From Mesonia sp. (GTDB lineage Bacteria > Bacteroidota > Bacteroidia > Flavobacteriales > Flavobacteriaceae), in the NCBI GenBank assembly GCA_012964435.1, contig DTTX01000074.1, forward strand, positions 40,765 through 90,996: a stretch of DNA of 50,232 nucleotides. The letters run 5' to 3'. Positions 1,852 to 29,149 of the stretch are shown one piece after another. The notes under the pieces are model-generated. The model saw only the letters and a program-made list of their open reading frames with translations. It had not been told where the DNA came from and searched no databases. Positions within the stretch are counted from its first letter, which is position 1. Each line of letters starts with the position of its first letter. Position numbers and translations under genes: made by a program.

Positions 1852-1881
1852 CATCGAAACATTAATGCAATTCGGCGAAAA
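1852..1881 (+). promoter_or_regulatory. Phased 9-bp direct repeat array A (putative LytTR-type operator)
   Basis: CATCGAAAC at 1852-1860 and CGGCGAAAA at 1873-1881 are spaced exactly 21 bp start to start. A poor third match (TAACTGCAA) lies in phase at 1831. A TAAATTTG -7 box follows at 1909-1916, 27 bp after the array, and no TTTG -33 box is present. The array would lie at roughly -69 to -40 relative to a start near 1921. The binding protein is inferred, not shown. Confidence 0.6.
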
Positions 1882-1908
1882 ATAGATTAATCAATCTCTT
1901 AATTTATC

Positions 1909-1916
1909 TAAATTTG
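1909..1916 (+). promoter_or_regulatory. -7 promoter box of small RNA unit 1
   Basis: TAAATTTG matches the Bacteroidetes sigma-A -7 consensus TAnnTTTG exactly and lies 4 bp before the conserved GAGGTTAAG that opens the unit. A -33 TTTG is lacking, suggesting dependence on an activator bound at the upstream array. Confidence 0.6.
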
Positions 1917-1920
1917 AAAT

Positions 1921-1990
1921 GAGGTTAAGTAATTTATTTCATAAGTTTTTATTGGTTTAAAGCCGAGAGTGGAGACTCCCGGCTTTATTT
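1921..1990 (+). ncRNA. Small RNA-like unit 1 (tandem family of three)
   Basis: About 70 nt beginning GAGGTTAAGTAATTT and ending in an intrinsic terminator (AAGCCG-GAGT / ACTC-CGGCTT around loop GGAG, then TTTATTT). The same body is repeated at 2155 and 2368, while the spacers between units are unrelated except for the phased repeats. The terminator stems differ between copies but keep pairing (an A-C mismatch here is G-C in unit 2; unit 3 has a perfect 8-bp AT-containing stem), which supports a real RNA structure. No ORF of useful size lies inside. Size and ends are inferred from the -7 box and terminator. The function is unknown; a trans-acting RNA or a LytTR-controlled regulatory RNA is plausible. 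Confidence 0.65.
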
Positions 1991-2064
1991 ATTATGAAAA
2001 TTACCAAAATCCAATATTGAGCATTTATAAATATTTGCTCTTAAAAAGTATCAAATTAATATTT

Positions 2065-2115
2065 TAACGAAAGATAATTATCAATCACCGAAACATAACT
2101 TCCATTCATCGAAAA
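2065..2115 (+). promoter_or_regulatory. Phased 9-bp direct repeat array B (putative LytTR-type operator)
   Basis: Three elements in exact 21-bp phase: TAACGAAAG at 2065, CACCGAAAC at 2086 and CATCGAAAA at 2107. The distance from the last element to the following -7 box (GATATTTG, 2143-2150) is 27 bp, identical to array A. The elements and spacing are directly visible; the regulator is inferred. Confidence 0.65.
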
Positions 2116-2154
2116 ACCCATTAGATAAACGTTTAAGATTGCGATATTTGAAGT

Positions 2155-2230
2155 GAGGTTAAGTAATTTATTTCATAAGTTTTTATTGGTTTTTAAGCCG
2201 GGAGTGGAGACTTCCGGCTTTCTTTTTTTT
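2155..2230 (+). ncRNA. Small RNA-like unit 2
   Basis: Second copy of the unit: starts GAGGTTAAGTAATTT 4 bp after a GATATTTG -7 box, and ends with the hairpin AAGCCGGGAGT-GGAG-ACTTCCGGCTT followed by a run of T. The body is nearly identical to unit 1 over about 45 nt up to the terminator. Compensating changes in the stem (G-C and G-U pairs in place of those in unit 1) argue that the structure is maintained. No protein-coding potential is evident. Confidence 0.65.
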
Positions 2231-2278
2231 CTTTAATTTATTCAAAAAACTAAACCTAACCTCTTCACCGTTTTATTT

Positions 2279-2329
2279 AATCTATAGTAATTATACAATG
2301 GTCTATACTAATCAACCACTTACCGAAGA
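2279..2329 (+). promoter_or_regulatory. Phased 9-bp direct repeat array C (putative LytTR-type operator)
   Basis: AATCTATAG at 2279, GGTCTATAC at 2300 and TACCGAAGA at 2321, again with 21-bp spacing. The first two are a CTATA-type variant of the element (also seen in array E at 3599). The -7 box GATATTTG (2356-2363) follows 26 bp after the last element, one base less than in A and B. Confidence 0.5.
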
Positions 2330-2367
2330 ATTAAAATCCAAACAGGATAATTAGTGATATTTGTTAT

Positions 2368-2439
2368 GAGGTTAAGTAATTTTATTTCATAAGTTTTTAT
2401 TGGTTTTTTAGGCCGAGAGAATATTCTCTCGGCTTTTTT
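2368..2439 (+). ncRNA. Small RNA-like unit 3
   Basis: Third copy: starts GAGGTTAAGTAATTTT 4 bp after GATATTTG and ends with a perfect hairpin GCCGAGAGAAT/ATTCTCTCGGC and a T6 tract (2410-2439). The terminator stem has a quite different sequence from units 1 and 2 while the 5' body is conserved, so the body is what is under selection. A lipoprotein gene starts 55 bp downstream at 2495, so readthrough could feed it. Confidence 0.65.
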
Positions 2440-2494
2440 GTTTACACTCAAGCAACCATTTAAAGATAATTACATCTTAATAAAAAAAGATAAA

Positions 2495-2935
2495 ATGAAA
2501 TTATTACAGAAACTCATACTTCTAATTAGTATAGCAAACTTAATTTCTTGTACATCTTGTGATGAGAATGAGACCAATTATTTTTCTTCGTGTGATTTTG
2601 AATGTATTGTCGATCCAGATATATACGAAAATTCTGAATCTTCTAATGTGACAATCTCAAATTTAGAAATTATAGATAACTGCTTAACTATAAATTATTC
2701 ATCAAGTGGTTGCGATGGTAGTACTTGGGAAGTTCGATTAATTGCTAACGACGAAGTTCTAGAGTCTAACCCGCCTCAACGAAATTTAAAATTTGAATTA
2801 ACTAATCAAGAAGCTTGTTTAGCGGTGATTTCTAAAAGTAGTTCTTTCGACATTTTAAATTTACAAGTAGAAGGATCGACATCTGTATATTTAAACCTTG
2901 ATGGTTACGATAATTCAATTTTATATGAATACTAA
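2495..2935 (+). CDS. Small Cys-rich lipoprotein, function unknown
   Basis: I place the start at ATG 2495, giving 146 residues that begin with a lipoprotein signal peptide (MKLLQKLILLISIANLISC, lipobox Cys19). A longer frame from TTG 2438 would start inside the T tract of the terminator of small RNA unit 3 and would bury the signal peptide, so I reject it. The mature part begins TSCDENE and has several Cys residues (SSCDFECI, DNC, SGCDG, EAC) that could form disulphides, and a beta-rich composition. It has no family I recognise. It probably sits in the outer membrane or periplasm. It is downstream of the LytTR-associated small RNA units. Confidence 0.75.
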   Translation: MKLLQKLILLISIANLISCTSCDENETNYFSSCDFECIVDPDIYENSESSNVTISNLEIIDNCLTINYSSSGCDGSTWEVRLIANDEVLESNPPQRNLKFELTNQEACLAVISKSSSFDILNLQVEGSTSVYLNLDGYDNSILYEY

Positions 2936-2964
2936 AATCACTTACATATACAATTAGGTTATTT

Positions 2965-2994
2965 CGTCTAAAGATAATTTCCATTCAACGAATC
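2965..2994 (+). promoter_or_regulatory. Phased 9-bp direct repeat pair D upstream of the STAS-like gene
   Basis: CGTCTAAAG at 2965 and CAACGAATC at 2986 are 21 bp apart. The 12-bp spacer ATAATTTCCATT is 11/12 identical to the spacer in array B (ATAACTTCCATT), so the two arrays look related by descent. No clear TAnnTTTG follows at the expected position. The STAS-like gene starts 63 bp after the pair. Confidence 0.55.
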
Positions 2995-3057
2995 TTATCA
3001 TATACAACACATAATTTTTAGAAATTAGTAATATAATAACTACTAAAACTTGAAATT

Positions 3058-3363
3058 ATGGCATTTGCGATCACAAAAAACAAAGGAGAATATTGGTTAA
3101 GAGGTAATCTAACAGCAAGTAATGCTCCACTGGTAAAGAAACATTTCGAAATGATTCTTATGAACAAGCAAGAACTAACAATTCATTTAGATTTTCTAGA
3201 CAGTTTAGATACGGGAAGCATGTTTGAACTTCAACTACTAAAGAATATGGCTTATGATCGACATAAAATTATACATTTTGTAGGGCAGCATAATAAAAAA
3301 ATACAAGGAACATTTTTTAGAACCGGGATTAACTTATTTGATTATTATGAGCAAAGCGCATAA
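3058..3363 (+). CDS. STAS-like domain protein
   Basis: A 101-residue soluble protein. The pattern of an N-terminal beta-strand with a Leu-Gly turn (WLRGNLTASNA), a helix, a hydrophobic strand and the LDSLDTGSMFELQLLKNMAY segment resembles STAS domains (anti-sigma factor antagonist fold), where a Ser or Thr after the Asp is the regulatory site. The resemblance is by pattern only. It is a single gene, with phased repeat pair D upstream and a terminator directly downstream, so it is probably controlled with the small RNA units. A partner kinase or sigma factor is not encoded nearby. Confidence 0.6.
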   Translation: MAFAITKNKGEYWLRGNLTASNAPLVKKHFEMILMNKQELTIHLDFLDSLDTGSMFELQLLKNMAYDRHKIIHFVGQHNKKIQGTFFRTGINLFDYYEQSA

Positions 3364-3386
3364 AATTATAAGATTCAAAAATTATT

Positions 3387-3419
3387 AATCGTGGTAGAAG
3401 TATTTTATCACGATTTTTT
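3387..3419 (+). terminator. Intrinsic terminator after the STAS-like gene
   Basis: AATCGTG (3387-3393) pairs with CACGATT (3409-3415) and is followed by T residues. It lies 24 bp after the stop codon. The 341-bp gap to the next gene also holds array E; otherwise I see only AT-rich sequence there. Confidence 0.75.
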
Positions 3420-3577
3420 ATTCTTAAACGTTAATATTTTAACTAAATTGAAATATTTATGAATTCACATAAATTACATCATAATTTAAAATTTCAGTAA
3501 TTTAAAAAGCTTATATATGAATATATCATATTTTAATCCTTAACTAATAACTATAATTATTGATTCTTTAATTTAAA

Positions 3578-3628
3578 AATCTACAAATTTCAACTTCTCA
3601 ACTATACATAATTGCACTTCATCGAAAT
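3578..3628 (+). promoter_or_regulatory. Phased 9-bp direct repeat array E upstream of the glycosyltransferase gene
   Basis: AATCTACAA at 3578, CAACTATAC at 3599 and CATCGAAAT at 3620 with 21-bp spacing. The last element is a near-consensus match; the first two are of the CTA-type variant also seen in array C. The gene starts 76 bp later. No good -7 box is visible at the expected distance. Confidence 0.5.
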
Positions 3629-3704
3629 ATATTACAAATAAACTCTTTTATGTATGAAATTTACACTATCAAATTAGCCCTAAAAATTTTTTAATCATTT
3701 AATT

Positions 3705-4901
3705 ATGAAATTAGCTATTATTACTGCATTACCTACAAGTAATGTTCCTTTAGGGGAATATGGTTACCATTTAGCAAAAAGCTTTGCTAAGAAAGATGAA
3801 ATTGAAGAATTGGTTTTAATTACAAACAAAGCTAGAGATCCAAAAATTTTAGATTTTGACACACAAGGATGTAGAATCACCGTAAAAGAATGTTGGGATT
3901 ATAATCAAGCGATGAATGTTTTCTGTATTTACAAATCGATTCTAGAAGAGAAACCAGACGCTGTCTTGTTTAATGCCCAAATAAACATGTTCGGCAATAA
4001 AAAAATCGCTGCAGGATTAGGTTTATTGCTACCCATGATTTTTAAATTGAAAGGTTTAGTTTCTATCGTATTGTTACATCATTTAGAACATAATCTAAAA
4101 TTAGATAGCGCCGGGTTGTTCTCAAGAAACTTTAAATCAAAACTTAATAATTTTGTTGGTACAAAACTTATGAAGTCCTTGTTGCAAGCAAACTTAGCAG
4201 TAGTCACTTTAAAACAAAATGTAGTTAAGCTTAATGAACTTTACGGAGCTAAAAATGTATTACATATACCACACGGTTCTTTTGAAAATACTAATGTTAA
4301 TTTTGAAGAAAAGAAAAGCGTAAGAAAAAAAATCTTGACTTTCGGGAAGTTTGGAAATCATAAAAATATAGAAGTTTTAATTGAAGCAGTCGAACTTATA
4401 AAGACTCGAATGCAAGAAGATATAGATTTAGTCGTTGCAGGAACAGATTCGGTAAATAATGAAGGCTATTTGGCTAAAGTACAAAAGAGTTATAATAATA
4501 TTCCGAATTTAAAATTTACAGGATACATTCTTGAGAATGAAATACAAGGTTTATTTTCTGAAGCAGATCTAATCGTATTGCCATATTTAAAGACGTTAGG
4601 AAGCTCAGGAGTGCTGCATTTATCAGGTTCTCACGGCAAAGCAGTGGTTTTACCGGATCTTGAGGGTTTTAGCACTTTAGTGAGAGAACAAGGCTATAGA
4701 GGTCAGTTTTTTAAACCAAACAGTGTTTTATCTTTAGCTGAAGCCATCGAGGATGTTATTTATAATGAAGATTATAAACTAAAAATTGCAAAGGCAAATT
4801 ACAGAGCTGCATGTTCTTCACCAATTTCTAGTGTTACCGATAGCTATATATATGAATTTAAGAATTTAATTCAACAAAAATATCACCAAGTAGTAGCATA
4901 A
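3705..4901 (+). CDS. Glycosyltransferase, GT-B fold (GT4-like)
   Basis: A 398-residue cytosolic protein without signal peptide. The N-terminal half begins as a Rossmann domain (MKLAIITALPTSNVPLGEYGYHLAKSF), and the C-terminal half has the usual nucleotide-sugar binding layout: HGSFEN, then ILTFGKFGNHKNIEVLIEA, VVAGTDS, LKFTGYILENEIQGLFSEADLIVLPY, SSGVLHLSGSHGKAVVLPD. This is the pattern of GT4 retaining glycosyltransferases acting on polysaccharide or glycoconjugate. The donor and acceptor cannot be told from sequence. It stands alone, not in a polysaccharide cluster, and carries a phased repeat array in its upstream region, which suggests it is an output of the LytTR pathway. Confidence 0.85.
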   Translation: MKLAIITALPTSNVPLGEYGYHLAKSFAKKDEIEELVLITNKARDPKILDFDTQGCRITVKECWDYNQAMNVFCIYKSILEEKPDAVLFNAQINMFGNKKIAAGLGLLLPMIFKLKGLVSIVLLHHLEHNLKLDSAGLFSRNFKSKLNNFVGTKLMKSLLQANLAVVTLKQNVVKLNELYGAKNVLHIPHGSFENTNVNFEEKKSVRKKILTFGKFGNHKNIEVLIEAVELIKTRMQEDIDLVVAGTDSVNNEGYLAKVQKSYNNIPNLKFTGYILENEIQGLFSEADLIVLPYLKTLGSSGVLHLSGSHGKAVVLPDLEGFSTLVREQGYRGQFFKPNSVLSLAEAIEDVIYNEDYKLKIAKANYRAACSSPISSVTDSYIYEFKNLIQQKYHQVVA

Positions 4902-4913
4902 ATTACTGTAAAT

Positions 4914-5113
4914 CCGGCTTGTATTATTTAAAGAGTGATCTTAAACATATCTAAAATAACGACCCCACCAAGCCGGTATCTACAGTTAAAAGTAACATTA
5001 AAATTACAAATTTTATCATTAAAGAAGGGGTTTCATAATAGTTAGTTTTTAAATGTTGGTTAAGTTTGCGCCACTTGAAGAGTCGGTATCATTTTATTGA
5101 ACCGGCTTTTCTT
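4914..5113 (+). promoter_or_regulatory. Alternative hairpins upstream of the FNT gene
   Basis: CCGGCTTG at 4914-4921 pairs perfectly with CAAGCCGG at 4969-4976. AAGCCGGT at 4970-4977 also pairs perfectly with ACCGGCTT at 5101-5108, and AGTCGGT at 5081-5087 pairs with ACCGGCT at 5101-5107 with one G-U, followed by TTTTCTTG. The three pairings are mutually exclusive and the last one looks like a terminator. This could be the terminator of the glycosyltransferase transcript, a small RNA, or a leader of the next gene. No ligand motif is recognised. Confidence 0.4.
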
Positions 5114-5180
5114 GTTAAATAAATCTTTATTGTTTTTCAACTTGAGGAGTTCAGAGTAAATTTCAGAATTATTAGAAAAA

Positions 5181-6044
5181 ATGACTAAAGAAGAAGAAAA
5201 TACTCAGAAAAATATAGATTCAGAAATTCATAATTCTGCTTCAGAATCTAAGAAGAGTGCCGGCACAAAAAAATCGCACGGAGAGATTTTAAAAGATCAG
5301 ATCTGTGAAGGACAAGAGACTTATAATAAAAAGCCGGGTAGCATTATTTTGAGTTCTATGACAGCAGGATTAGAAATCGGTTTTAGTTACTTATTAATTT
5401 GTAGTTTATTTTCCTTTTTTCAAGATCAATTCACTAATCAAACATTATTTAAGCTTATTGCCTTTGTATATCCGCTAGGCTTTATTTTAGTGATTTTAGG
5501 GCAATCTATTCTATTTACAGAGCAAACATCTTTACTCACACTACCAGTTTTAAATCGCAAACGAAGTTTTGGTAGTTTATTTAGAATTTGGGGTTTGGTA
5601 ATTTTCGGTAATTTAATTGGTGGCTTTCTAATAGCGCTTACGCTAATTTGGATCGGACCCAAACTGCAACTCTTCAATTTAAAAACCATAGAAACGATTG
5701 CTCTTCACGTTATAAAACCAGACTCTTTAACCATTTTGATCAGTGCTGTTTTAGCGGGTTGGTTAATGGGGCTTTTATCTTGGTTACTTTCTTCTGCTAC
5801 CGAAACTGTAAGCAGAATAATTATAATATTTCTTATTACAGCTACGATGTCTTTTACAGGATTGCATCACAGTATTATTGGTAATGTTGAAGTTTTCTCG
5901 GGAATGATCACTTCTTCAGCCATAAATTTTACTGAATATATTAGATTTCAATCGTTAGCATTATTGGGTAACGCCATTGGCGGAGCGTTTTTCGTTGCTT
6001 TATTAAAATATAGGGCTTTCGTTTATAATGTAGATGTAAATTAA
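5181..6044 (+). CDS. Formate/nitrite transporter (FNT) family channel
   Basis: A 287-residue inner membrane protein. About 50 polar, Lys/Glu/Ser-rich residues precede six predicted membrane segments. The pattern MTAGLEIGFSYLLI, LGQSILFTEQTSLLTLPVL, WGLVIFGNLIGGFLIAL, AGWLMGLLSWLLSS, FTGLHHSIIGNVEVFSGM and LLGNAIGGAFFVALLKY is that of the YfdC branch of the FNT family (pentameric channels for formate, nitrite or related small anions). The substrate cannot be assigned; YfdC-type members are not well characterised. The stop codon overlaps the stop codon of the convergent PAP2 gene. The upstream region has alternative hairpins. Confidence 0.85.
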   Translation: MTKEEENTQKNIDSEIHNSASESKKSAGTKKSHGEILKDQICEGQETYNKKPGSIILSSMTAGLEIGFSYLLICSLFSFFQDQFTNQTLFKLIAFVYPLGFILVILGQSILFTEQTSLLTLPVLNRKRSFGSLFRIWGLVIFGNLIGGFLIALTLIWIGPKLQLFNLKTIETIALHVIKPDSLTILISAVLAGWLMGLLSWLLSSATETVSRIIIIFLITATMSFTGLHHSIIGNVEVFSGMITSSAINFTEYIRFQSLALLGNAIGGAFFVALLKYRAFVYNVDVN

Positions 6045-6895
6045 AAAGTACCCACTACTCCAATACGATTACCACCAAATTGAAGTCGCCAAGAAATTTT
6101 ATTACGCTTTTCTTTATAGGCAGGATCGCTACTCATTTCTCGGTCTAAATATTTATCTATAGAATCTACTACTACAACAGTTAATACGGTACTAAGTGCA
6201 ATATCGGTAAGCCAATGTGCCTCTGCCCAAAGTCTTGAAACAGGTGAAACCATACCGCCTGCAATTAATGCTCCTTTTACCCAAATATTGTCGAATTGTT
6301 TAGATAAAGCATAAAAGGTTGTAAAAGATAAAATGGTATGCCCTGAAGGAAATGAATGATAACCACCTTCTTTACTAAATGGTCTAAATGTGGCTTTACC
6401 ACCGGTGTTAGGTCTAGCTCTTCCTGTTGCAGTTTTACTTATCGTTTGTATTAAACCGGCAGCACTCGCAGAAGAGATCATTAAAATACCCGTTTTTCTT
6501 AACTTTTTACTTTTAGTGAATAAACCTGTTAGGTAAATCGCAGTATTTACTCCGTAGTTATTTTGAGGACTTCCAAAATACCATCCAAAATCTTTTACTA
6601 CACCTGGTATATCTTCATTTTGTTCAGCAAAATAATCGTGAGCATCTTCGTCTATAATATTTAAACCAGCTGTACCAATAGCAACACTAGCTGCAATGGC
6701 CCAATCGTCTTGATCCCACTTAAAAGGTGAAGTATAAACTTGCTTAAAACCACCCCACATAAGTCCGGCATCGTTTTTAGCGAGATCCCATGTGGTAATT
6801 TTTTCTTCTGAAGGAATTGCTAACGTATCTATTTGACAAAAAAATAAATTAACGCTAAAACAAACTAATAATAAGCTTAGGGTAATCTTATGCAT
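6041..6895 (-). CDS. PAP2-family membrane-associated phosphatase
   Basis: 284 residues with a cleavable signal peptide (MHKITLSLLLVCFSVNLFFC). The three phosphatase motifs are intact: Kx6RP (K154-P162, KTATGRARP), PSGH (183-186) and SRx5Hx3D (S220-D231). Type 2 phosphatidic acid phosphatases remove phosphate from lipid phosphates such as phosphatidate or undecaprenyl pyrophosphate; the signal peptide places the active site in the periplasm. The exact substrate is unknown. It is convergent with the FNT gene, and the two stop codons overlap by 3-4 bp, so there is no room for a terminator between them. TAGTTTTG on the minus strand at 6920-6913 could be its -7 box. Confidence 0.88.
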   Translation of the reverse strand: MHKITLSLLLVCFSVNLFFCQIDTLAIPSEEKITTWDLAKNDAGLMWGGFKQVYTSPFKWDQDDWAIAASVAIGTAGLNIIDEDAHDYFAEQNEDIPGVVKDFGWYFGSPQNNYGVNTAIYLTGLFTKSKKLRKTGILMISSASAAGLIQTISKTATGRARPNTGGKATFRPFSKEGGYHSFPSGHTILSFTTFYALSKQFDNIWVKGALIAGGMVSPVSRLWAEAHWLTDIALSTVLTVVVVDSIDKYLDREMSSDPAYKEKRNKISWRLQFGGNRIGVVGTF

Positions 6896-6912
6896 ACTTT
6901 TTTATAGCAAAA

Positions 6913-6920
6913 CAAAACTA
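6913..6920 (-). promoter_or_regulatory. Possible -7 box for the PAP2 gene
   Basis: TAGTTTTG on the minus strand matches TAnnTTTG and lies 18 bp from the start codon. No matching -33 element is seen, so the call rests on one box. Confidence 0.35.
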
Positions 6921-7018
6921 TTTAATGCTTATACCGATAAAATTTAATTAAAATTTCACATTTAAGGAAAGTTAATTTCTAATAAATTAATTTAATATTG
7001 ACTCAAAAACCTGATAAT

Positions 7019-7723: not shown

Positions 7724-7729
7724 CTTTTT

Positions 7730-10045: not shown

Positions 10046-13000
10046 TTAGTTTTCTTCTTCTTCAACTGCATCTTTATTTGCCTCTTCTTCAGCTTTCTTT
10101 TTCTTTTCTTCGCGTTTGGCTTGCTTTTCTTCTTGTGCTATTTCTGAAGCTGTCTTTTTAAATAATTCATTAAACTTATTAAATTCACGCATAAAGATTA
10201 GAGCGACACCGTTTACAAATACTTGCCCGTCGATGATATTCTCATACTGACTTTTTCTGAAGCCTCTTATACGCCAACGACCATCTTCGGTAAGTAAATA
10301 TTCTATACTCACATTCCCAATGACAGGATTAGCTTCGCCCGGTCTATTTTCTCCTTGCACACCTATCTCGCTTCCCGCTTGTACCACTAAACGATCATTT
10401 AATAATTTTTTACGGGCACTAACATTTAAATCAGTTCGATCTTGTGGAGCACTACCTTGATAATCGGTATAACTGTTTAGACCAAAACTTAACTCGATAC
10501 CTGTATTTCCTGTTAAACGATCTGAAAACACATTCAATTGATCTGACAAGGCTTGATTTAAATTATCTCTGGCAACCGTAGCCGCACCACCTTGACTACC
10601 ATCTGCTCCCTGTTCTGGGTAGAATCGATTAAGTACTAATAATGAAAAAACCTGTTTGTTTAATTGATCTTCTTGTTGATTAAGTTGTCTTACTCGACCA
10701 TAAACAGTTCCGCCGATAGCGCCTTGTTCATCTTCTGGCATATCTAAACCAAAATTTAAACGCGGTTGCATTAATTCTCCATCAACATTTAAATACACTA
10801 AAAATGGTAGTTTTTGTCGATATCGCCCAACTTCGGTTGCAGAAGTTCCCGAAATTTGACTCGACATTAATGATACCGCAGAAGTTTCAACCTCATAAAT
10901 CGCGCGAACATCGAGATTTGCATTCATCGGGTCACCCGTCCACGTAATTGTACTTCCTTCAGCAATATTAAATTTACGCTTAACCAGATTATACAAATTC
11001 ATCTCATAATGACCGTCATTTACTTCATACCTACCGGTAAGAGTTGTTCTTCCATTTCTTTCAATATTAAATCTTAGATCGCCTTCACCTATTAATTGCA
11101 AATTATCACCGGTTCTTTCATTTAAAATCACATTTACCGTAGCTCCCGGTTGTACGGTTAACTTCGAGGTAAGTTCAATACCGGTTAAAATAGCAGAAGC
11201 CCCATCATTTTCATTTCTAGTTAAAATAGCATCGGAGTTTTCTTTATTTACAAAAACCACTACGCCATCTCGTTCGGTCACACCTACTTGAGAAGGTGGC
11301 ACCACGTAAGTAACATTGGTATTTTTATTGACGGTAAGATCTACATCGAGTTTTGGGAAACTTAATTTTCCGCCGAGACTGGCATTCACATCAAAAATTG
11401 CTTTACCGTAATATAGATCGTTATCTTCTTTGGTAGAATTTAAAGCTTGAAAATTGTTCGCTCTAATTTGCAGATCAAAAGCAGGATCAATCATACTTTT
11501 TTGTGTTGAAACATTTCCTTTGACCACAAACTCATTCTTATTCTCATCTAATATGGAGAATTTAGAAAAATTAATTCCGTTGTTATTAATCTTAATAGTT
11601 TCATTACTAATGGAAAATTCAGAATTTAATTTACTAACCACGAAATTGGTATTATTAAACTTAAACTCCCCTGAATATTGTGGTTCTAGAGTTGTGCCTG
11701 TGATCGAAACATTTCCGCTTAAATATCCTTTAGATTCTTCTAGTTCTTCCGGTATAAATTGCTGAATAATTGGCAATCCTAATTTTTGTAAATCTAGATT
11801 AAGATCGATGTTGGCTGCAGCTTCATCGGCTATATAATCGCCTTTTAAGGCTAAGTCTATTTCGCTACCTTGTAAACCTAAATTAAAATCGTAGTTACTG
11901 CCTCCCTTAGATTTTGCATCGATAGATAATTCACCCAAAGCAATTTCGGTGATTTTAAAATCTTGAATTTTTAGATCGGCGATCATCCCCAGATCTTCAA
12001 AAGGATTTACCAAAATAAAATCACCCTGAACGATACCCGAGGATAAATATTCATCTGGATTAAAATACCCTAATAAAGTTGAAAGCTTAAAATTTTGAAG
12101 CGTGATCCCAAAATGCTCTTCTTCTACCTTAAAATTATTATTAAACGCTACCTCTTGATTATTTCTGTTGAAAGAAAAGTTATTGAAGACAATAGTTTTA
12201 TCTTCAAATATTACTGAATTATCAATCGGTGTTTGCCAAGGATTTTTATTGAGAATTAAATCTTGTGGATCTATAGAAAATTGAACCCAATCATTATTAC
12301 TTGTAATTTTACTCGAAATATGATAAAGCTGCTGCTGATCTTTTTCTGAATTAAAATCTAATTGAAGCGTATCTCGTGTTAAATGACCTTCAAAATAGGT
12401 TTTTTCGATCGCTAAAGGTCCGGCTTCAATACCAGAAAATCCAAAAGTAAAGTCGGCTTTCTCTGCTGTAGAATTTAATTTTAGCTGTAAACTATCTAAG
12501 CTATTCTCATTATATTTTACGTAGGGTAAATTAAAATCTGCAGTAAGTTTTTCTTCAGCTTCGCTAAAATCCATTTTAATATGAATACTATCCATTTCTT
12601 CAATACCATCTACAAAAACTTCAGAAATAATAGGTCGATCGGTAATACTTGTCTCAAAAAATAAATTCACGGGTTTTTGTAGCGAATCGCGAGGTTCTGG
12701 CTCTTTGAAATAATGAGCTGCGTGGCGTTGTAAAGCTTTTATAAACTGCGTGGGATTGGCGTTAGAATGTAATTTTGCTTGAATAAAACCACCATTTAAA
12801 GTTACTGCCGTACTATCTTCTGCAATTCTGGTATGTATATCTAAATCTCCAATATAATAAGGCTGATCGTCGTAAACTGTGATCGCTTCATCAACTTTAG
12901 CATCGACACTAAACGCATCTTTTTCTCCTTGATAAGTACCATTTAGCATTAATTTACCACGAATTTGCTTTTGTGTAAATCCAAGCGCATATAGATCTAT

Positions 13001-16096: not shown

Positions 16097-16105
16097 AATC
16101 TCTTT

Positions 16106-21780: not shown

Positions 21781-21800
21781 TCTCAACTATAAAAATTTTC

Positions 21801-21831: not shown

Positions 21832-21891
21832 ATGCATTAACTTTCTGCGGAAATTTCAACTGAATTTTCCATCTAATCAACTCATAATCCT

Positions 21892-21899
21892 TAAATTTG
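21892..21899 (+). promoter_or_regulatory. -7 box of the thi operon
   Basis: TAAATTTG matches TAnnTTTG exactly and ends 7 bp before the TPP aptamer begins, so transcription probably starts at the aptamer's first stem. No clear -33 TTTG. Confidence 0.5.
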
Positions 21900-21905
21900 A
21901 ATTGG

Positions 21906-21979
21906 CTTTAGGGGTATTCTGTAAAGAATTGAGAGAGTCCCTTTGAACCTGATTCGGTTAACACCGTCGTAGGGAAAAG
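21906..21979 (+). ncRNA. TPP riboswitch (THI element)
   Basis: The conserved aptamer blocks are present in order: P1 CTTT/AAAG, AGGGGT, TTGAGA, CCCTTTGAACCTGATTCGG, AACACCG and CGTAGGGAA. These are the thiamine pyrophosphate binding core. It directly precedes thiM-thiE-thiD-tenA. Downstream, a hairpin TTCTTCT/AGAAGAA (21994-22013) lacks a T tract, so control is probably at translation start, as is usual in Bacteroidetes. Confidence 0.93.
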
Positions 21980-22049
21980 TTTAGAATTAAAGTTTCTTCT
22001 TGTTCTAGAAGAATTCGTCCTTCAGCCATTTATAATTTTAAAAACTTAA

Positions 22050-22856
22050 ATGATGAAAGACCTTCTTTGGAAAAATATCACGCAACTTCGAGAACAATCT
22101 CCCCTAGTTCATAGCATTACCAATTATGTGGTGATGAATAACACAGCAAACGCTCTATTAGCAGCCGGAGCCTCACCAATTATGGCGCACGCACATCCAG
22201 AAATGGAAGATATGATGAAGATCTGCCAAGCCTTAGTGGTAAACATCGGTACGCTTGATGAATATTGGGTTACTTCCATGAAAAAAGCCGCAACGCAAGC
22301 CAATCAACTTCAAAAACCTTGGGTGCTCGACCCTGTTGGCGCCGGAGCAACTCCTTATCGAGATGAAGTTTTAGCCGATTTATTAAAGCTGAAACCAACT
22401 ATTATTAGAGGGAACGCTTCAGAAATTATGGCATTAGCAAAACACAACACCACGCCAACTAAAGGTGTAGATAGTTCTGCGGAAAGTAACGAAGCTGTAG
22501 CTGCTGCCAAATTCTTAGCTGAAGAATACCAAACAACTGTTTGTATTTCTGGAGAAACCGATATTATCTTGAATGATCAAAAAGAAATTCACCTTTCTAA
22601 CGGAAATGCGTTAATGGCAAAAATCACCGGAATGGGTTGTTCTGCCACTGCATTGGTAGCGGCGTTTTCAGCATTTATTAAAGATAAAGCTGAAGCAGTA
22701 ACTTCTGCAATGGCTTTACTTGGCATTGTGGGAGAATTAGCTGCAAAAGAAAGTAATGGACCGGGAAGTTTACAATTAAATATCTTAGATAAACTCTATA
22801 ACCTCACTCAAGCTGAATTTTCAACTACTTTAAAAATTGAAGTAAAACGTGGTTAA
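22050..22856 (+). CDS. thiM: Hydroxyethylthiazole kinase
   Basis: 268 residues with the ThiM pattern: SPLVHSITNYVVMNNTANALLAAGASPIMAH (thiazole binding), WVLDPVGAGATP, RGNASEIMAL and the C-terminal ATP/anion-hole motif ITGMGCSATALVAAF. The enzyme phosphorylates the thiazole moiety for salvage into thiamine. It is the first gene after the TPP riboswitch. Two ATG codons in tandem (22050 and 22053) can serve as start. Its end overlaps the thiE start by 8 bp, indicating translational coupling. Confidence 0.95.
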   Translation: MMKDLLWKNITQLREQSPLVHSITNYVVMNNTANALLAAGASPIMAHAHPEMEDMMKICQALVVNIGTLDEYWVTSMKKAATQANQLQKPWVLDPVGAGATPYRDEVLADLLKLKPTIIRGNASEIMALAKHNTTPTKGVDSSAESNEAVAAAKFLAEEYQTTVCISGETDIILNDQKEIHLSNGNALMAKITGMGCSATALVAAFSAFIKDKAEAVTSAMALLGIVGELAAKESNGPGSLQLNILDKLYNLTQAEFSTTLKIEVKRG

Positions 22857-24320: not shown

Positions 24321-24957
24321 ATCTTGGAAATCTATTGAACCCATTTACCAAAAAATAATTGAAATGCCTTTTATAAAAGAGCTCCAAAACGGAACACTTC
24401 CGCTAGAAAAATTTCAATTTTATATGGGGCAAGATTCCTTTTACTTAGAAAATTTTGCCCGAAGCTTAGCCTTAATCGGTGCTCGAGCAGAACGCATAGA
24501 TCACGCTTTAGATTTTATTCGATTTGCTGAAGGAGCGATAGTGGTTGAAAAAGCCTTACACGATTCTTATTTTCAGGAATTTGGTTTAGCGAATAGAGGA
24601 AATATTGAGCCGACAACGCATCATTATATTAATTTTCTGAAAAGTACTTCAGCTTTAGATCAGGTTGAGGTTGCAATGGCAGCAGTCTTACCTTGTTTTT
24701 GGATTTATCAAGAAGTGGGCGATTATATTTATAAAAATCAGTTGAAGGGAAATAATCCCTATCAAAAATGGATCGACACTTATGCCGGAGAAGAATTTGA
24801 AACTTTAGTGATCAAAGCAAAAGAAATTTGCGATTTGGTAGCAGAAAATTGCACCGAAACTCAACAACAAAAAATGACGTATGCATTTGTTGCTGCAAGC
24901 AGATTAGAATTTATGTTTTGGGATAGCGCTTATCGATTAAAGTATTGGGAAGTATAA
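24304..24957 (+). CDS. tenA: TenA-family aminopyrimidine aminohydrolase (thiaminase II)
   Basis: 217 residues, all-helical. Catalytic residues of the TenA family are present: D44 (MGQDSFYL), C131 (VLPCFWIYQEVG) and E202 (SRLEFMFWDSAY). In thiamine salvage TenA hydrolyses base-degraded pyrimidines such as aminomethyl-HMP to HMP, which ThiD then uses. Together with ThiM this marks the operon as one for salvage of both halves of thiamine; no thiC or thiG is seen here. It is the last gene of the operon and ends 1 bp before a strong terminator. Confidence 0.93.
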   Translation: MKWTDKSWKSIEPIYQKIIEMPFIKELQNGTLPLEKFQFYMGQDSFYLENFARSLALIGARAERIDHALDFIRFAEGAIVVEKALHDSYFQEFGLANRGNIEPTTHHYINFLKSTSALDQVEVAMAAVLPCFWIYQEVGDYIYKNQLKGNNPYQKWIDTYAGEEFETLVIKAKEICDLVAENCTETQQQKMTYAFVAASRLEFMFWDSAYRLKYWEV

Positions 24958-24988
24958 AAAAAGGGAAGCAAAATTTGTTTCCCTTTCT
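24956..24988. terminator. Bidirectional terminator between tenA and wrbA
   Basis: AAAGGGAA-G-CAAA-ATT-TTTG-T-TTCCCTTT forms a long hairpin with A runs before and T residues after, in the 39 bp between the convergent tenA and wrbA genes. It can stop transcription from both sides. Confidence 0.8.
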
Positions 24989-24996
24989 CATAATAA

Positions 24997-25596
24997 TTAC
25001 TTATTAATTTTTTCGGTTATTTCCAAGGCTCGTTTTACTTGAGCGGCAATGGCTTGTTTTTGTTTCCCATCGAGGTCGCTTCCTCCTACTATACTAAATC
25101 CGTAAGGATTTCCTCCCGTTTCAAAAACTACAGGATCAGCATAACCCGGAGCAGCAATAATTGCTCCCCAATGCATCATCGTTTTATATAAAGATAGTAA
25201 AGTACCTTCTTGACCTCCGTGCGGATTAGCTGCACTCGTCATTCCTGTAACCACTTTATTTACTAATTTTCCGTTTTGCCAAAGTCCGCCGGTAGAATCT
25301 ATTAAACTTTTAAATTGTGAAGGAGCATCACCATAGCGAGTAGGATAACTAAAAACAATCGCATCTGCCCAATCTAGATCGTCTACTTTCGCTGTTTCAA
25401 TATCCTTTGTTTCTTGGTAATGATTATGCCAGTCTTCATTTTCTTTAATCACTTCTTCAGGAACTGTTTCTTCAACTCTTTTAAACCGAATATTTTCGAC
25501 GCCTAGATCTTTAGCAGCAGTTTCTGCTTCTCGAGCTAATTTATAGTTTGTTCCTGTAGAACTGTAATAAATGATTGTTAGTTTTAAATTTTCCAT
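24997..25596 (-). CDS. wrbA: WrbA-like flavodoxin-fold NAD(P)H:quinone oxidoreductase
   Basis: 199 residues, cytosolic. The N-terminal FMN phosphate loop YYSSTGTNYKLA, the FSYPTRYGDAPSQFKSLIDSTGGLW segment and ANPHGGQEGTLLSLYKTMMHWGAII are hallmarks of the WrbA family, which reduces quinones by two electrons and protects from redox stress. Length is normal for the family. It is a single minus-strand gene, convergent with tenA. No promoter with both boxes is apparent. Confidence 0.88.
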   Translation of the reverse strand: MENLKLTIIYYSSTGTNYKLAREAETAAKDLGVENIRFKRVEETVPEEVIKENEDWHNHYQETKDIETAKVDDLDWADAIVFSYPTRYGDAPSQFKSLIDSTGGLWQNGKLVNKVVTGMTSAANPHGGQEGTLLSLYKTMMHWGAIIAAPGYADPVVFETGGNPYGFSIVGGSDLDGKQKQAIAAQVKRALEITEKINK

Positions 25597-25670
25597 AGTT
25601 AATTTTTATTTAAAGATATTTAAAACCAACTAATTAGAAATACTAACAACCTTTAAGGTTATGATAAAAT

Positions 25671-25805
25671 TTAAAAGAGCTTACCTTTAAATTTATCAAT
25701 AACATCTTTTCTTTTTTTTAAAGTTTCAGAAAGACTCTCTTTAAATTCTGAAGATACATTTTGTGATAGTAGATGTTCTATTTTGTTAACCTCATCTTCT
25801 AACAT
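25671..25805 (-). CDS. Small hypothetical protein (44 aa)
   Basis: On the minus strand an ATG at 25805 opens a 44-codon frame beginning MLEDEVNKIEHLLSQNVSSE and ending VIDKFKGKLF. It is highly charged with a heptad-like pattern of L/V/I, so probably one or two helices. The frame can be extended upstream to a TTG at 25838 (55 residues, starting with SEQYIHKLIK). It has no family I know. Codon use and amphipathic pattern look like real coding sequence, but with this length chance cannot be excluded. It lies 74 bp upstream of wrbA in the same direction. Confidence 0.45.
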   Translation of the reverse strand: MLEDEVNKIEHLLSQNVSSEFKESLSETLKKRKDVIDKFKGKLF

Positions 25806-25904
25806 TTTAATTAATTTATGTATGTACTGTTCTGACAATGTTAGAAATTTTGGTTAATTAAAAGTTAATTTATAAAATTATATCAAAAACGACCATAATA
25901 GTAT

Positions 25905-25976
25905 CGGTGAGATGCAATTATCTTTCGACGAATAGCATATTTCTTTCTATGAAACATTACATATTAATGTCGAACA
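25905..25976 (+). promoter_or_regulatory. Phased 9-bp repeat array F, no obvious target
   Basis: Four elements in exact 21-bp phase on the plus strand: CGGTGAGAT (25905), CGACGAATA (25926), CTATGAAAC (25947) and TGTCGAACA (25968). A weak -7-like GATATGTA lies at 26005-26012, 37 bp from the last element start (36 in the small RNA units), and is followed only by the hairpin at 26015-26045. No plus-strand gene follows for almost 5 kb. The array may serve an unseen short RNA, be a remnant, or act on the minus-strand small ORF. Confidence 0.4.
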
Positions 25977-26014
25977 TTAATTAATTTAAAAATTGCTGAA
26001 CCAGGATATGTAAA

Positions 26015-26045
26015 CAAAAAAACCCTCTGGAAAATCAGAGGGTTT
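26015..26045 (-). terminator. Intrinsic terminator after the T9SS protein operon
   Basis: AAACCCTCTG/CAGAGGGTTT hairpin with loop ATTTTC and, on the minus strand, a T7 tract. It ends the transcript of the two minus-strand genes at 26070-29037. A near-identical hairpin occurs at 29150-29179. Confidence 0.85.
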
Positions 26046-26069
26046 GAAATACTTATAAAATTTCTAAAA

Positions 26070-26255
26070 TCACTTTTTATTCCTAATACCAAGTATACTT
26101 CCTAAAACTAATCCAACAAGCAGATATTCAGCTATTGGAGCAGCTGCAGCTTCGTCATTAATATCATCTTCAAAACTCGGTAATCCTTGAGCAAAACCAC
26201 TATTTAAAATTCCAAATAAACAGATCACAGCTAAGGTTAATGCAAATTTTTTCAT
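26070..26255 (-). CDS. Exported miniprotein with a PI-motif, membrane helix and basic tail (PID-CTERM-like)
   Basis: 61 residues: signal peptide MKKFALTLAVICLFGILNSGFAQ, a short acidic mature part (LPSFEDDINDEAAA), then a tripartite C-terminus: APIAEY, a hydrophobic helix LLVGLVLGSILG and the basic tail IRNKK. This short motif-helix-Lys/Arg layout resembles the PEP-CTERM/PID-CTERM sorting signals recognised by exosortase-like enzymes in Bacteroidetes; the exact Asp of PID is replaced here (PIAE). With almost nothing between both signals the mature product would be about 15-35 residues. It starts 1 bp after the stop of the T9SS protein gene and shares its promoter and terminator. Role unknown. 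Confidence 0.6.
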   Translation of the reverse strand: MKKFALTLAVICLFGILNSGFAQGLPSFEDDINDEAAAAPIAEYLLVGLVLGSILGIRNKK

Positions 26256-26256
26256 A

Positions 26257-29037
26257 TTATCTCTTTATAAATTTAGATTGAAATTTTTTACCATCTTTTG
26301 CCGTTAGACTTAGAACATAAACTCCGTTTGCAAATGAAGATGTATTAATGGAAACTTGATTTATAGCATTTTCAAAATCTTTCTGATAAACTGTTTGTCC
26401 CAAAATATTTACAACTTTTATATTCATTTCATTTTGGATATCTTCAGGTAATACTACTTGTAATTGGTTTTCAACAGGATTAGGATATAGCTTAATACTT
26501 TGTGAAATATTAAAATCTTTATTATTTAAATTTTGCTCACCAAATACAATACTAAAGCGGTTGTAATCAATACTTGCATCAATTGATTCATCTACCTGAA
26601 AAAAGATTTGATTTGTTCCGCTAGTTAATAATACTTGAGTTTCTAAATAATTATCTTTTAGATAAACCTCTGTATTATCTAAATTTTGAACCTCAACTTC
26701 AAATACATAATTTGAGTATTTATAATTACTAGTAAACAACTGTAATTCTTCATCTTGTTGTGGTTCAGCTCTATATTCGATAGACAAATAGTTATCATCT
26801 TGTATTCTCGCTAAATTTTCATCTAAATTTCCCGGTTTAGTTGCATCGTGAATATCTACTTCAGAATTAAATTCGCTACCAAAATTTATTTTTAAACCGT
26901 CACTTGCTGTTTCTGCATTTGCAAATGCATCTTGAGTATATAATTTTATATGGATAGATTTGGAAGTATTTGCAGATCTAAATAAACTGGTAAATGAAGT
27001 AGGATCGGTTTCTTTTAAAGTTTCATTAAAAACAAGTTCGGGTGTGATCCCTTCTGTACCAGTTCTTACGAAAATTCCCTGCCAAGGTTGAATAAATCCA
27101 TTTGCATCAGATCCGGATGTATTGCTTCCATCAGATAGATCTACGGTAACAAAGGCTCCTCTACCTCCCGGTTGACCTACTGTTGGACTACCTCCTAAAA
27201 ATGGATCCCAAACATAATAGAAACCTGTATCGATATTAGTAGAATTTCTTAATAATAAGTCTACATTTACCGGACATTGGTAAGGATTACCTATAAAATT
27301 ATAATCACCCGCAGTTGTTGTAAAATCTGTAAAAGTTAATTCTCCAACTCCTAATACTCCTTTTGCTCTTAATGTCGTAATTGTTGGTGGTGTAGCATTA
27401 CTAGTTACGTCTATATCTCTACCTCCTCTAACCATTAATCTCCAAGGTTCTCCTATAGTAAGAGTGTTTGAGTTCGTATTTGTAATTGTAAACCAAGATT
27501 TAGTTTGGTTATCAAAACCGTACATAGATGGATTTCCTGAAGGTGAAAAGTCAAAACCATTTGTACCATCAGGGTCATCTATTACACCTGTAATATGTGT
27601 ACCATAGCCCGGACTAGGATTATTATTGTAAGCTGAAGGATTTTCTTGCCAGTTCTCTCTAATAGATGTAGTCGTTTCTACAGGGCTACTTACAAATCTA
27701 AAAGCTCTACGAGGTTGAATATATCTTTCTACAGTTGCTTCACCGGTAACTATAGACCAATTTGGTAACGGACCTAAAACCCCGGTATTTGTTGCATCAC
27801 TTACAAAAACTAGATCTCCATTAATAGTTAGATCACCATCTAATTGTAAAACGTTCTCTACATTTAGTGTAGCACCATTATCGATCGTTAAGTTATGTGC
27901 ATCTAAATCTCCGGTTAAGGTCGTTGTTCCATTTACAATTGAAACATTATCTGTTAAGGTTGAAACACCTACCGGATTTTGTGGACTCCAACTTCCGTTT
28001 TCGTAAATATAAGCTAGACCTGTTGTAAAACTTACAGATACCCAATCACTAAAATTACCGTTACCACAATTTCGTCTTACGTAAAAATCATACGTTGTAT
28101 TTGGAGTAAGACCTGTACCAGTTAAAACAGTAGTTGTCGGGCCAAAAGCAAAACCACTTGTTGATGCGTTTGGAGGGGTATCACCGTCGTTATATAGTAA
28201 AGCTTCCCACCCTGCTGGTTCATTTTCAAAATCCCAAGTAAATGATGCCTCGGTAGGACCAATATCAAAAGTAGTTACATCGTACGGGTTAGCACAATCT
28301 CCAATTCTACCGCTTATAGCATATAAATTAAATACTGCCTCGTCACCACTTGGTGATGTTCTTTCAATAATAATATTATCGACTACTTTACCCTCATTTG
28401 TGATAGAGATATTAAGATCAACTCTATAAAACCTAGGATTATTAGCAGGAGTTTCAACAAAATCTGTAGCTCGTTGTACACGACCAAACCCACCTTCAAC
28501 AAACGGAGTACCATTAAACCAATCAGGAACTGTACCCGAAATTACTTCTGAAGTTCCATCGGTAAAATTGAATGTTACATCGATAGTAGGATTACCATTA
28601 CCACCATTTACCAATAAATATAAATCTGAATAGGTAAAACTATCATTAAAAGTTATAGTTGCCGTTTGTGTATCAAACTCTCCAATTCTCAAAGAATTAT
28701 TTTGATCAAACGGTTTTAATTGAAATTGAATATTAGTATTATTCTGATCTATTATAATACCATCTGAAGGTAAACCTACACCCGTAGCAGGATCACTAGA
28801 GTTAGCTTTCCAGTCTTCAGACATAAATACATAAGCTGCACTTGCATCTACCGTAGCTGTAGTAGAGTTTGCTGCCGGGCCAATACCATTAGCAATAACA
28901 TCAGAATTGAAACCATTAAAATCTACTGTTACATAATCTCCTGTAACCTGAGCACTCGTATTTAAATACCCAAAAAAAGAAAAGACTAAAATAAAACTTA
29001 ATTGTTTTAGATTAATGTGTGAAGTAATTTTTCCCAT
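26257..29037 (-). CDS. Large secreted protein with fibronectin III domain and T9SS type A sorting domain
   Basis: 926 residues. A signal peptide (residues 1-29) precedes a region of beta-sandwich sequence, a fibronectin type III domain at about 252-340 (FTWDFENEPAGWEALLYNDGD to VSVSFTTG), a beta-helix or G8-like stretch with repeated NGTTTLTGDLDAHNLTIDNGATLN and LQLDGDLTINGDL, and a C-terminal type IX secretion sorting domain (SIKLYPNPVENQLQV to FQSKFIKR). T9SS carries such proteins across the outer membrane and anchors them to the surface or releases them. Adhesion or polymer binding is likely, but no catalytic domain is visible. A TAGATTTG -7 box with three phased 9-bp elements lies upstream, so it may belong to the LytTR regulon. 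Confidence 0.87.
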   Translation of the reverse strand: MGKITSHINLKQLSFILVFSFFGYLNTSAQVTGDYVTVDFNGFNSDVIANGIGPAANSTTATVDASAAYVFMSEDWKANSSDPATGVGLPSDGIIIDQNNTNIQFQLKPFDQNNSLRIGEFDTQTATITFNDSFTYSDLYLLVNGGNGNPTIDVTFNFTDGTSEVISGTVPDWFNGTPFVEGGFGRVQRATDFVETPANNPRFYRVDLNISITNEGKVVDNIIIERTSPSGDEAVFNLYAISGRIGDCANPYDVTTFDIGPTEASFTWDFENEPAGWEALLYNDGDTPPNASTSGFAFGPTTTVLTGTGLTPNTTYDFYVRRNCGNGNFSDWVSVSFTTGLAYIYENGSWSPQNPVGVSTLTDNVSIVNGTTTLTGDLDAHNLTIDNGATLNVENVLQLDGDLTINGDLVFVSDATNTGVLGPLPNWSIVTGEATVERYIQPRRAFRFVSSPVETTTSIRENWQENPSAYNNNPSPGYGTHITGVIDDPDGTNGFDFSPSGNPSMYGFDNQTKSWFTITNTNSNTLTIGEPWRLMVRGGRDIDVTSNATPPTITTLRAKGVLGVGELTFTDFTTTAGDYNFIGNPYQCPVNVDLLLRNSTNIDTGFYYVWDPFLGGSPTVGQPGGRGAFVTVDLSDGSNTSGSDANGFIQPWQGIFVRTGTEGITPELVFNETLKETDPTSFTSLFRSANTSKSIHIKLYTQDAFANAETASDGLKINFGSEFNSEVDIHDATKPGNLDENLARIQDDNYLSIEYRAEPQQDEELQLFTSNYKYSNYVFEVEVQNLDNTEVYLKDNYLETQVLLTSGTNQIFFQVDESIDASIDYNRFSIVFGEQNLNNKDFNISQSIKLYPNPVENQLQVVLPEDIQNEMNIKVVNILGQTVYQKDFENAINQVSINTSSFANGVYVLSLTAKDGKKFQSKFIKR

Positions 29038-29072
29038 ATTATAAATTTTTATTACAAAATTATTATGGGCGG

Positions 29073-29080
29073 CAAATCTA
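29073..29080 (-). promoter_or_regulatory. -7 box of the T9SS protein operon
   Basis: TAGATTTG on the minus strand, exact match to TAnnTTTG, giving a start near 29068 and a leader of about 30 nt. The -33 position shows no TTTG but lies within array G. Confidence 0.6.
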
Positions 29081-29088
29081 AATTTTTT

Positions 29089-29139
29089 TATTCGATAAAC
29101 GGTAGGTAACCTTCGATAAATTGCAATTAAATATCGATA
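29089..29139 (-). promoter_or_regulatory. Phased 9-bp repeat array G upstream of the T9SS protein gene
   Basis: On the minus strand TATCGATAT (29139-29131), TATCGAAGG (29118-29110) and TATCGAATA (29097-29089) repeat every 21 bp; the core TTTATCGA is identical in all three. Their places relative to a start near 29068 are about -71, -50 and -29. The first two agree within 2 bp with the operator positions of the small RNA units (-69, -48), and they point toward the gene in the same orientation. Confidence 0.65.
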
Positions 29140-29149
29140 AATAAGTATA

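Follow-up and report, generated by a model that had tools for sequence, protein, structure and literature searches.

Tandem direct repeats beside a LytTR regulator and an H-NOX/FIST operon in Flavobacteriaceae: candidate activator sites of a proposed nitric oxide-responsive phosphorelay

The stretch of DNA considered here, 50,232 nucleotides of a Mesonia sp. genome (assembly GCA_012964435.1, contig DTTX01000074.1, positions 40,765 to 90,996 of the forward strand; hereafter the window), contains a gene for a LytTR response regulator (1112..1828, plus strand) and seven arrays of short direct repeats, five of which closely follow it. This raises the question of which protein binds the repeats, to what signal it answers and which genes it controls. 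An earlier note on this DNA interpreted the arrays as a LytTR regulon with this regulator as the proposed binder, and the results of our analysis support that interpretation. We propose, with a probability of roughly 0.8 and on the basis of sequence comparison, that the arrays are activator sites of the regulator within a nitric oxide (NO)-responsive phosphorelay that controls surface and matrix genes as well as small RNAs.

To describe the repeats, a matrix of 40 columns (40 bp) was trained by expectation maximisation on the intergenic DNA of 80 Flavobacteriaceae loci, the best 80 of 561 confirmed ones, the regulators of which are 68-80% identical to the protein encoded at 1112-1828; the window was excluded from training. 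The consensus of this matrix, aCCATTCGTCGACACttAa..gCcatTcA.CGAaa (28 bits), has 301 intergenic matches above 12 bits in 117.8 kb of the training loci vs. four in 850.3 kb of coding DNA. When a matrix trained on half of the loci was scored on the other half, both ways, 135 and 137 intergenic matches above 14 bits were obtained vs. two and two coding ones (272 in 131.9 kb vs. 4 in 850.3 kb), and 78 of the 80 loci were covered, which bears out the enrichment between genes predicted by the earlier note. Among 297 matches above 14 bits in the relatives' loci, 296 are on the regulator's strand and 293 are located between genes.

The matrix fixes 21 bp inside a dimer and covers the 21-bp form, while the count of half-site offsets behind the regulator was open and gave 21 bp in 23 cases, 22 bp in 14 and every other offset in 0-8. 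The period of exactly 21 bp claimed previously is therefore the dominant one, not an absolute one, as 22 bp is the second commonest offset in the relatives; from dimer to dimer, within 70 bp, the distance is 21 bp in 87 of 89 cases. Behind 208 terminal dimers, 114 TAnnTTTG boxes occur within 92 bp, and 109 of them have an offset of 34, 35, 55 or 56 relative to the second unit, i.e., they occupy two positions (34/35 and 55/56) one period apart, whereas stretches of equal length upstream of the dimers contain eight such boxes in total. In a flavobacterial transcriptome, TAnnTTTG was identified as the -7 box of sigma-A promoters (PMC9723704). The array-to-box geometry is that of a putative activator site close to the polymerase. 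Such a fixed phase to the -7 box, together with the strand bias, the restriction to intergenic DNA and the divergence of the copies of one motif, is hard to reconcile with structural or mobile repeats devoid of any regulatory role. The existence of tandem copies, among them three near-identical 238-bp units and a copy beyond a transposase-like gene in genome G071, could point that way, but we consider this explanation highly improbable.

A scan of the window with the matrix, the start of which is 6 bp 5' of the element starts used in the earlier note, gave ten positions above 12 bits, all inside the seven reported arrays (best score per array 17.2-29.3 bits). In 20 second-order Markov copies of the window the mean was 0.2 positions above 12 bits, four of the 20 copies exceeded this value, and the top score was 16.5, only narrowly below that of the weakest array, C (17.2 bits). 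All seven arrays were thus recovered independently, by a matrix derived from relatives, with details of two of them amended. The element starts at 1852, 2065, 2279, 2965 and 29139 agree exactly with matrix positions, and the reported sharing of 11 of 12 spacer bases by arrays B and D holds when the second spacer of B is taken. The first unit placed at 3578 has no support from the matrix, the supported pair beginning at 3599, and the array near 25905 is present on the minus strand, where the first notable open reading frame (ORF) behind it is one of 44 residues (25805-25671).

Arrays A, B and C, on the plus strand, each precede a predicted small RNA. Array A (1846..1885) has two units with the 21-bp period (29.0 bits) and a -7 box, TAAATTTG, at 1909-1916 (offset 35). 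Array B (2059..2119) has three units, with 21.1 and 27.2 bits at 2059 and 2080, and the box GATATTTG at 2143-2150 (offset 35); array C (2273..2333), also of three units, scores 8.5 bits at 2273 and 17.2 bits at 2294, and the same box is found at 2356-2363 (offset 34). Array D (2959..2998, plus strand, 27.4 bits) precedes a STAS-like gene, and array E (3593..3632, plus strand, 25.6 bits), with a degenerate box GAAATTTA at offset 35, precedes a glycosyltransferase gene. On the minus strand, array F (25897..25957) scores 29.3 and 14.7 bits at 25936 and 25957, and array G (29085..29145), consisting of three units with 22.8 and 22.4 bits at 29124 and 29145 and a box, TAATTTTG, at offset 34, precedes the gene of a secreted protein of the type IX secretion system (T9SS). 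A tRNA-Arg(TCT) gene (29191-29265, minus strand) lies directly upstream of array G.

Which protein binds these sites? The regulator encoded at 1112-1828 combines a REC domain (PF00072, 1.4e-18) with a LytTR domain (PF04397, 4e-22), and in 69 of the 80 relatives' loci an array lies within 700 bp behind its gene. In a survey of 199 Flavobacteriaceae genomes, with arrays sought by R1, a sequence model built from 72 arrays of relatives (E 0.01), and the regulator orthologue at E 1e-50, the motif occurs in 86 genomes and the regulator in 84: both in 77, the motif only in nine, the regulator only in seven and neither in 106 (Fisher p 4e-36). A stricter count, with the motif at E <=1e-3 and a 41%-identity protein of genome G003 excluded, gives 69, 3, 14 and 113, respectively (p 3e-35). 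Neither motif nor regulator is present in G053, the sole other genome of the source genus in the sample. In a class-wide sample of 198 genomes (regulator threshold E 1e-60), the motif was found in two, both Flavobacteriaceae with the regulator, and the regulator in three, one of which is outside the Flavobacteriaceae (46% identity) and has no motif. Hence the co-occurrence of arrays and regulator anticipated by the earlier note holds across the family sample. At the level of DNA comparison, then, the sites, their period, strand and promoter phase and their association with the regulator are established.

Linkage could explain part of this association, since the arrays are mostly near the regulator: in 13 of 16 single-contig genomes with the regulator and listed matches, all the matches listed are within 15 kb of it. 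The arrays might therefore be bound by another regulator and merely travel with the gene cluster, as could be suggested by genome G049, where the arrays are strong and the H-NOX operon is partly kept but no orthologue was found. We consider this unlikely, given that Pfam finds no DNA-binding domain other than LytTR among the seven proteins of the operon described below, that sites remote from the regulator exist in the source genome (contigs C93, C24, C26 and C61) and in genomes G100, G118 and G123, all of them regulator-bearing, and that 106 of the 115 genomes without an orthologue are also without the motif. Closer inspection of eleven genomes, namely G003, G053 and the nine with the motif only, showed LytTR proteins that share at most 36-42% identity with the regulator. 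The G049 locus itself (L188:1970-7176) comprises part of the H-NOX operon with arrays and a shortened FIST gene, with no second kinase, Hpt or regulator gene adjoining; this system is decaying, rearranged or misassembled.

To what signal does the regulator answer? Its gene is the last of an operon that starts upstream of the window, in the part of the source genome designated L085, so that the window starts within it. An array is followed, in this order, by the genes for REC, H-NOX, the PAS kinase, the FIST (NosP-like) protein and a second kinase, then by hpt and the LytTR regulator gene. The operon array (L085:1894) scores 34.8 bits and has a CATATTTG box, read by eye, at offset 55. The kinase gene adjoining the H-NOX gene spans L085:2962-5334; the second histidine kinase, HK2 (HisKA and HATPase_c), is represented in the window by its C-terminal part (2..778, plus strand) and is full length in L085, where its gene starts at 6464. 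It is followed by the gene of a probable phosphotransfer protein, Hpt (783..1106, plus strand; Pfam Hpt E 4.6e-5). Sixty-one relatives' loci were testable, their DNA covering the REC gene and over 220 bp upstream of it, and in all 61 an array is found no more than 220 bp upstream of that gene. As the array precedes the regulator's own operon, the regulator probably controls its own synthesis. The free REC protein, Hpt, the REC-LytTR regulator and the two kinases make up what would be a complete His-Asp-His-Asp chain, for which we infer the order of transfer, and no cyclic di-GMP enzyme domain was found among the seven operon proteins by Pfam at E 1e-3.

The position of the regulator gene at the end of the H-NOX/FIST operon makes nitric oxide the likely input. 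The H-NOX protein is full length (HNOB, Pfam 5.7e-36), and its closest solved chains, 6bde and 6bdd, align with it over residues 1-179 at E ~1e-58, including a histidine stretch, NHIHIQVKKIYP, and the sequence YKSER. We take the aligned histidine to be the proximal haem ligand, YKSER to be the YxSxR motif and the two chains to be the H-NOX of Kordia algicida; the PDB listing titles them an aldolase. The FIST protein matches FIST_N (2.8e-41) and FIST_C (2.9e-36). NosP proteins are described as sensing NO via a haem-bearing FIST domain (PMC12570481).

It is conceivable, with an appreciable but clearly minor likelihood, that the arrays belong to an ordinary LytTR regulon with an input other than NO, the H-NOX and FIST proteins answering another ligand or the redox state, or only tuning the response. 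Oxygen-binding H-NOX proteins exist. The FIST protein scores 62.3 bits (E 4e-17) against the NCBIfam NosP model, far under the cut-off of 450, and is therefore named NosP-like only. Within the DNA covered per locus, 17 of the 80 relatives' loci have no H-NOX gene and 33 no FIST homologue (>40% identity), and five (L005, L021, L040, L069 and L076) have neither, for which reason NO sensing may not be universal. Set against this, the H-NOX protein is complete, with its histidine and YxSxR stretch aligned, and H-NOX genes are present in 63 of these loci, FIST genes in 47 and both in 35, beside hpt in 80 and the REC gene in 71. Moreover, the NosP and H-NOX proteins that have been studied elsewhere sense NO and act on neighbouring kinases. 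A formate/nitrite transporter gene (5181-6044, plus strand) is situated after the regulon genes in the window, and a copy at L005:7224 adjoins predicted array-driven RNAs in Mesonia; it is a possible nitrogen-oxide link.

Besides the FIST score and the loci lacking sensors, several further results weigh against the reading of the arrays as activator sites of an NO-responsive relay. Arrays D and F of the window have no recognisable canonical -7 box at the usual phase, no array was found in two of the 80 relatives' loci (L039 and L042), and the R1 scan of the source genome, in which 150 of 2619 candidates were scored, detected arrays A and C at no better than E 0.03 and 0.13, respectively, with array B not among the matches listed. 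The Hpt score (24.0 bits) is just below the Pfam cut-off of 24.6; a homologue is present in all 80 relatives' loci. In the family survey, no orthologue was found in the nine motif-only genomes, of which seven have one marginal match (E 0.003-0.009) and two, G049 and G158, reach E <1e-4; G003 is regulator-positive only via its 41%-identity protein; and seven regulator-bearing genomes have no motif match at E 0.01. Six of these seven show weak sites about 15 kb or nearer to the regulator at a relaxed E 1 (in G197 on the opposite strand), and G170 has no site on the regulator's contig at that threshold. The training genomes of R1 may overlap the 199-genome survey, which favours the positives, not the many double negatives.

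Which genes do the arrays control? The claim that a STAS-like gene and a glycosyltransferase gene are array-linked was upheld in the relatives. The small STAS-like protein behind array D (3058..3363, plus strand) has no Pfam match of its own; its homologues in L046, L055 and L060 (26-31% identity) each begin 104-112 bp behind an array match (three of three), and another array-linked small protein (L189:10721-11023) matches STAS at E 3.4e-5. Homologues of the group 1 glycosyltransferase behind array E (3705..4901, plus strand; Glycos_transf_1 9.6e-19) lie 93-470 bp behind an array match in L027, L031, L071 and L076 (four of four). Array G is followed by the gene of a large secreted protein with a T9SS sorting tail (26257..29037, minus strand; Por_Secre_tail 1.2e-13). 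The 44-residue ORF behind array F (25671..25805, minus strand), located ahead of a WrbA-like gene, possibly encodes a small-protein target; the candidacy of the WrbA-like gene (24997-25596) as the direct target is weakened by this intervening ORF.

For 176 terminal dimers above 18 bits, the longest ORF with its start no more than 450 bp behind the dimer was taken (there was no such ORF for 14 of them), and grouping of these ORFs gave two large groups in the relatives: REC proteins, mostly the first gene of the operon (60 ORFs, 58 loci), and large, mostly secreted-looking proteins (59 ORFs, 53 loci). STAS-like proteins (five loci) and glycosyltransferases (four loci) form smaller groups, and further small ones were named by eye as flippase-, UDP-sugar dehydrogenase- and chain-length-like. 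Pfam searches with nine array-linked or neighbouring proteins gave DUF6923 with or without a T9SS tail, Polysacc_synt_3, STAS, REC-glycosyltransferase, glycosyltransferase and CHU_C, two proteins being unmatched. In G191 and in G196, a probable gene cluster for surface polysaccharide includes several genes with an array of their own. At least nine sites of the source genome pass E 0.01 among the R1 candidates scored; three of the four remote ones precede secreted-looking proteins and one a small protein. This target set points to control of the surface and matrix, from which we infer a role in biofilms. Secreted-looking proteins of a QVGINTTNP type are encoded on C93 and C24 of the source genome (L194:2799-3635 and L195:1524-5566), three in a row on C24; an array precedes the C93 gene, whose product has no Pfam match, and one of the C24 genes. 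Elsewhere in the window, an ordinary thiamine pyrophosphate (TPP) riboswitch precedes a hydroxyethylthiazole kinase gene (21900-22856, plus strand).

The remaining candidate outputs are the predicted small RNAs A (1921..1990), B (2155..2230) and C (2368..2439), all on the plus strand. All three contain a 5' stem-loop and a terminator as well as the core TTTCATAAGTTTTTATTGGTTT. With up to three mismatches allowed, this core is present three times in the source genome, and it is present exactly once in Mesonia, behind the regulator; a shorter form of it, with four mismatches allowed, also matches at L005:8535. A search behind the regulator for an array, a box and a terminator without an ORF in 82 loci (the 80 relatives, the window and G071) yielded 34 candidate RNAs in 26 loci (24 of the 80 relatives, the window and G071), with a median length of 70 nt (64-205); seven loci, including the window with its three, have at least two. 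In shuffled downstream DNA a terminator was equally near in 0 of 170 cases, and TTAATAGC, with at most one mismatch, precedes the terminator in 10 of the 34 candidates, whereas single-base shuffles gave 1.0 on average and 6 at most. As the candidates are related, these are not 34 independent cases. They are, to judge from their comparison, changing fast. In the distant relative G071 (L186:9862-12100), array and small RNA form three near-identical units of 238 bp, and a further copy is set apart by the transposase-like gene (10160-11356).

It is rather unlikely that these short units represent 5' leaders, short peptides or degenerate copies of each other instead of regulatory RNAs. An open frame of at least 13 codons does cross the core in units A and B, and Rfam gave no match to the small RNAs at gathering scores, but unit C interrupts the frame and the Mesonia unit lacks a start codon at that place, yet the core is kept; a coding role was accordingly judged unlikely. 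That 26 of 82 loci have an array, a box and a terminator but no ORF, and that tandem copies recur in G071, likewise argues for predicted regulatory RNAs.

A candidate target of RNA A is the start of hpt (783), with a pairing of -25.9 kcal/mol (z -6.1 vs. single-base shuffles) that ranks first among 43 window genes; the second-ranked partner is the array-linked secreted protein (z -2.7). This pairing is not conserved, with z 0.2-0.4 in Mesonia and an overall p of 0.46 vs. other genes for the 34 RNAs, which is a further point against the proposed reading as far as RNA feedback is concerned. For the regulator mRNA, the same comparison gave p 0.50, and hpt is first among the locus genes for seven of the 34 RNAs, three of them the window's own. 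The seed TTACTTAACCTCA, with at most two mismatches, has 124 genome sites vs. 120 for the reversed pattern, i.e., no enrichment. The core antisense CCAATAAAAAYTTATGAAA, with at most three mismatches, has 29 sites vs. 26 (the three RNA genes being counted in both totals, 124 and 29), and one site with two mismatches is the hpt start. Other core-antisense sites pair well, at start codons in L208 and L224 (z -4.6 and -3.9), and one in L218, with no ORF start, pairs more strongly than hpt (-30.7 kcal/mol, z -7.0). As these sites were chosen by complementarity, they give no ground for calling hpt special genome-wide. General RNA feedback on hpt or the regulator was therefore dropped, and pairing at hpt is kept as a lead for the source genome only.

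Taken together, a mechanism of the following kind may be envisaged. NO would bind to the H-NOX and FIST proteins and change the activity of the kinases, probably by inhibition, by analogy with NosP partners. Phosphate would pass from kinase to REC, to Hpt and to the LytTR regulator, which would bind the arrays with one unit per subunit, two helical turns apart, positioned to touch the sigma-A polymerase at TAnnTTTG promoters. Once phosphorylated, it would switch on the secreted proteins, the STAS-flippase-glycosyltransferase cluster and the adjoining short RNAs. In the weakest step, the RNAs might feed back on the relay, in the source genome by covering the hpt start codon.

Flavobacteriaceae are major degraders of marine polysaccharide, and we know of few regulators with known sites in this family. 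The motif provides a searchable DNA code for one signalling pathway present in 84 of the 199 sampled genomes, and it connects small RNAs and genes for surface proteins and polysaccharide with likely NO sensors.

To our knowledge, the Kordia algicida H-NOX is known by its structure only, and no regulon or binding site described with it was found in the literature searched. Likewise, neither this motif nor an H-NOX-LytTR system of Flavobacteriaceae was found described in our search of open-licence literature, which does not show absence from print; nor did that search turn up the combination, the sequence of the sites, their phase relative to the promoter or RNAs as an output. Imperfect direct repeats with about 12 bp between them, i.e., with a 21-bp period, are the known binding sites of LytTR regulators (PMC4064291), so that both the geometry of the sites and the regulator are of a known kind. 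With the LytTR/AlgR/AgrA type, the present system shares a REC-LytTR protein and direct repeats with a 21-bp period; it differs in its CCATTCRTCKACACT-like site, often in three tandem units and phased to a TAnnTTTG promoter, in the H-NOX/FIST relay as input and in the small RNAs among its targets.

H-NOX two-component systems are also known from Shewanella. In the H-NOX/NosP systems of Vibrio, Pseudomonas and Burkholderia, as presented in PMC6769237, PMC8738867 and PMC12570481, a haem NO sensor adjoins a histidine kinase, and the outputs are cyclic di-GMP or quorum sensing. The system described here similarly has, as known from its genes, a haem-sensor gene beside a kinase gene, but unites both sensor kinds and two kinases in one operon and has a LytTR output. 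A further parallel is offered by the Vibrio relay, in which an NO sensor acts via a kinase on the phosphotransfer protein LuxU. The output of that relay is the response regulator LuxO and several homologous Qrr RNAs. A putative sensor-kinase-Hpt layout and several homologous predicted RNAs would correspond to these here, whereas a LytTR protein takes the place of the sigma-54 regulator LuxO, and the RNA feedback pairing is not conserved. We therefore suggest, tentatively and with less than even confidence, that Flavobacteriaceae may possess their own counterpart of the Vibrio NO/quorum phosphorelay, in which H-NOX and a NosP-like protein would feed two kinases, REC and Hpt towards a LytTR activator, the arrays would drive genes for the surface and matrix together with small RNAs that evolve fast and are often present in several copies, and these RNAs would pair over the hpt start in the source genome. 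With a LytTR regulator in place of LuxO, such a system would work like the Vibrio relay without being a member of it.

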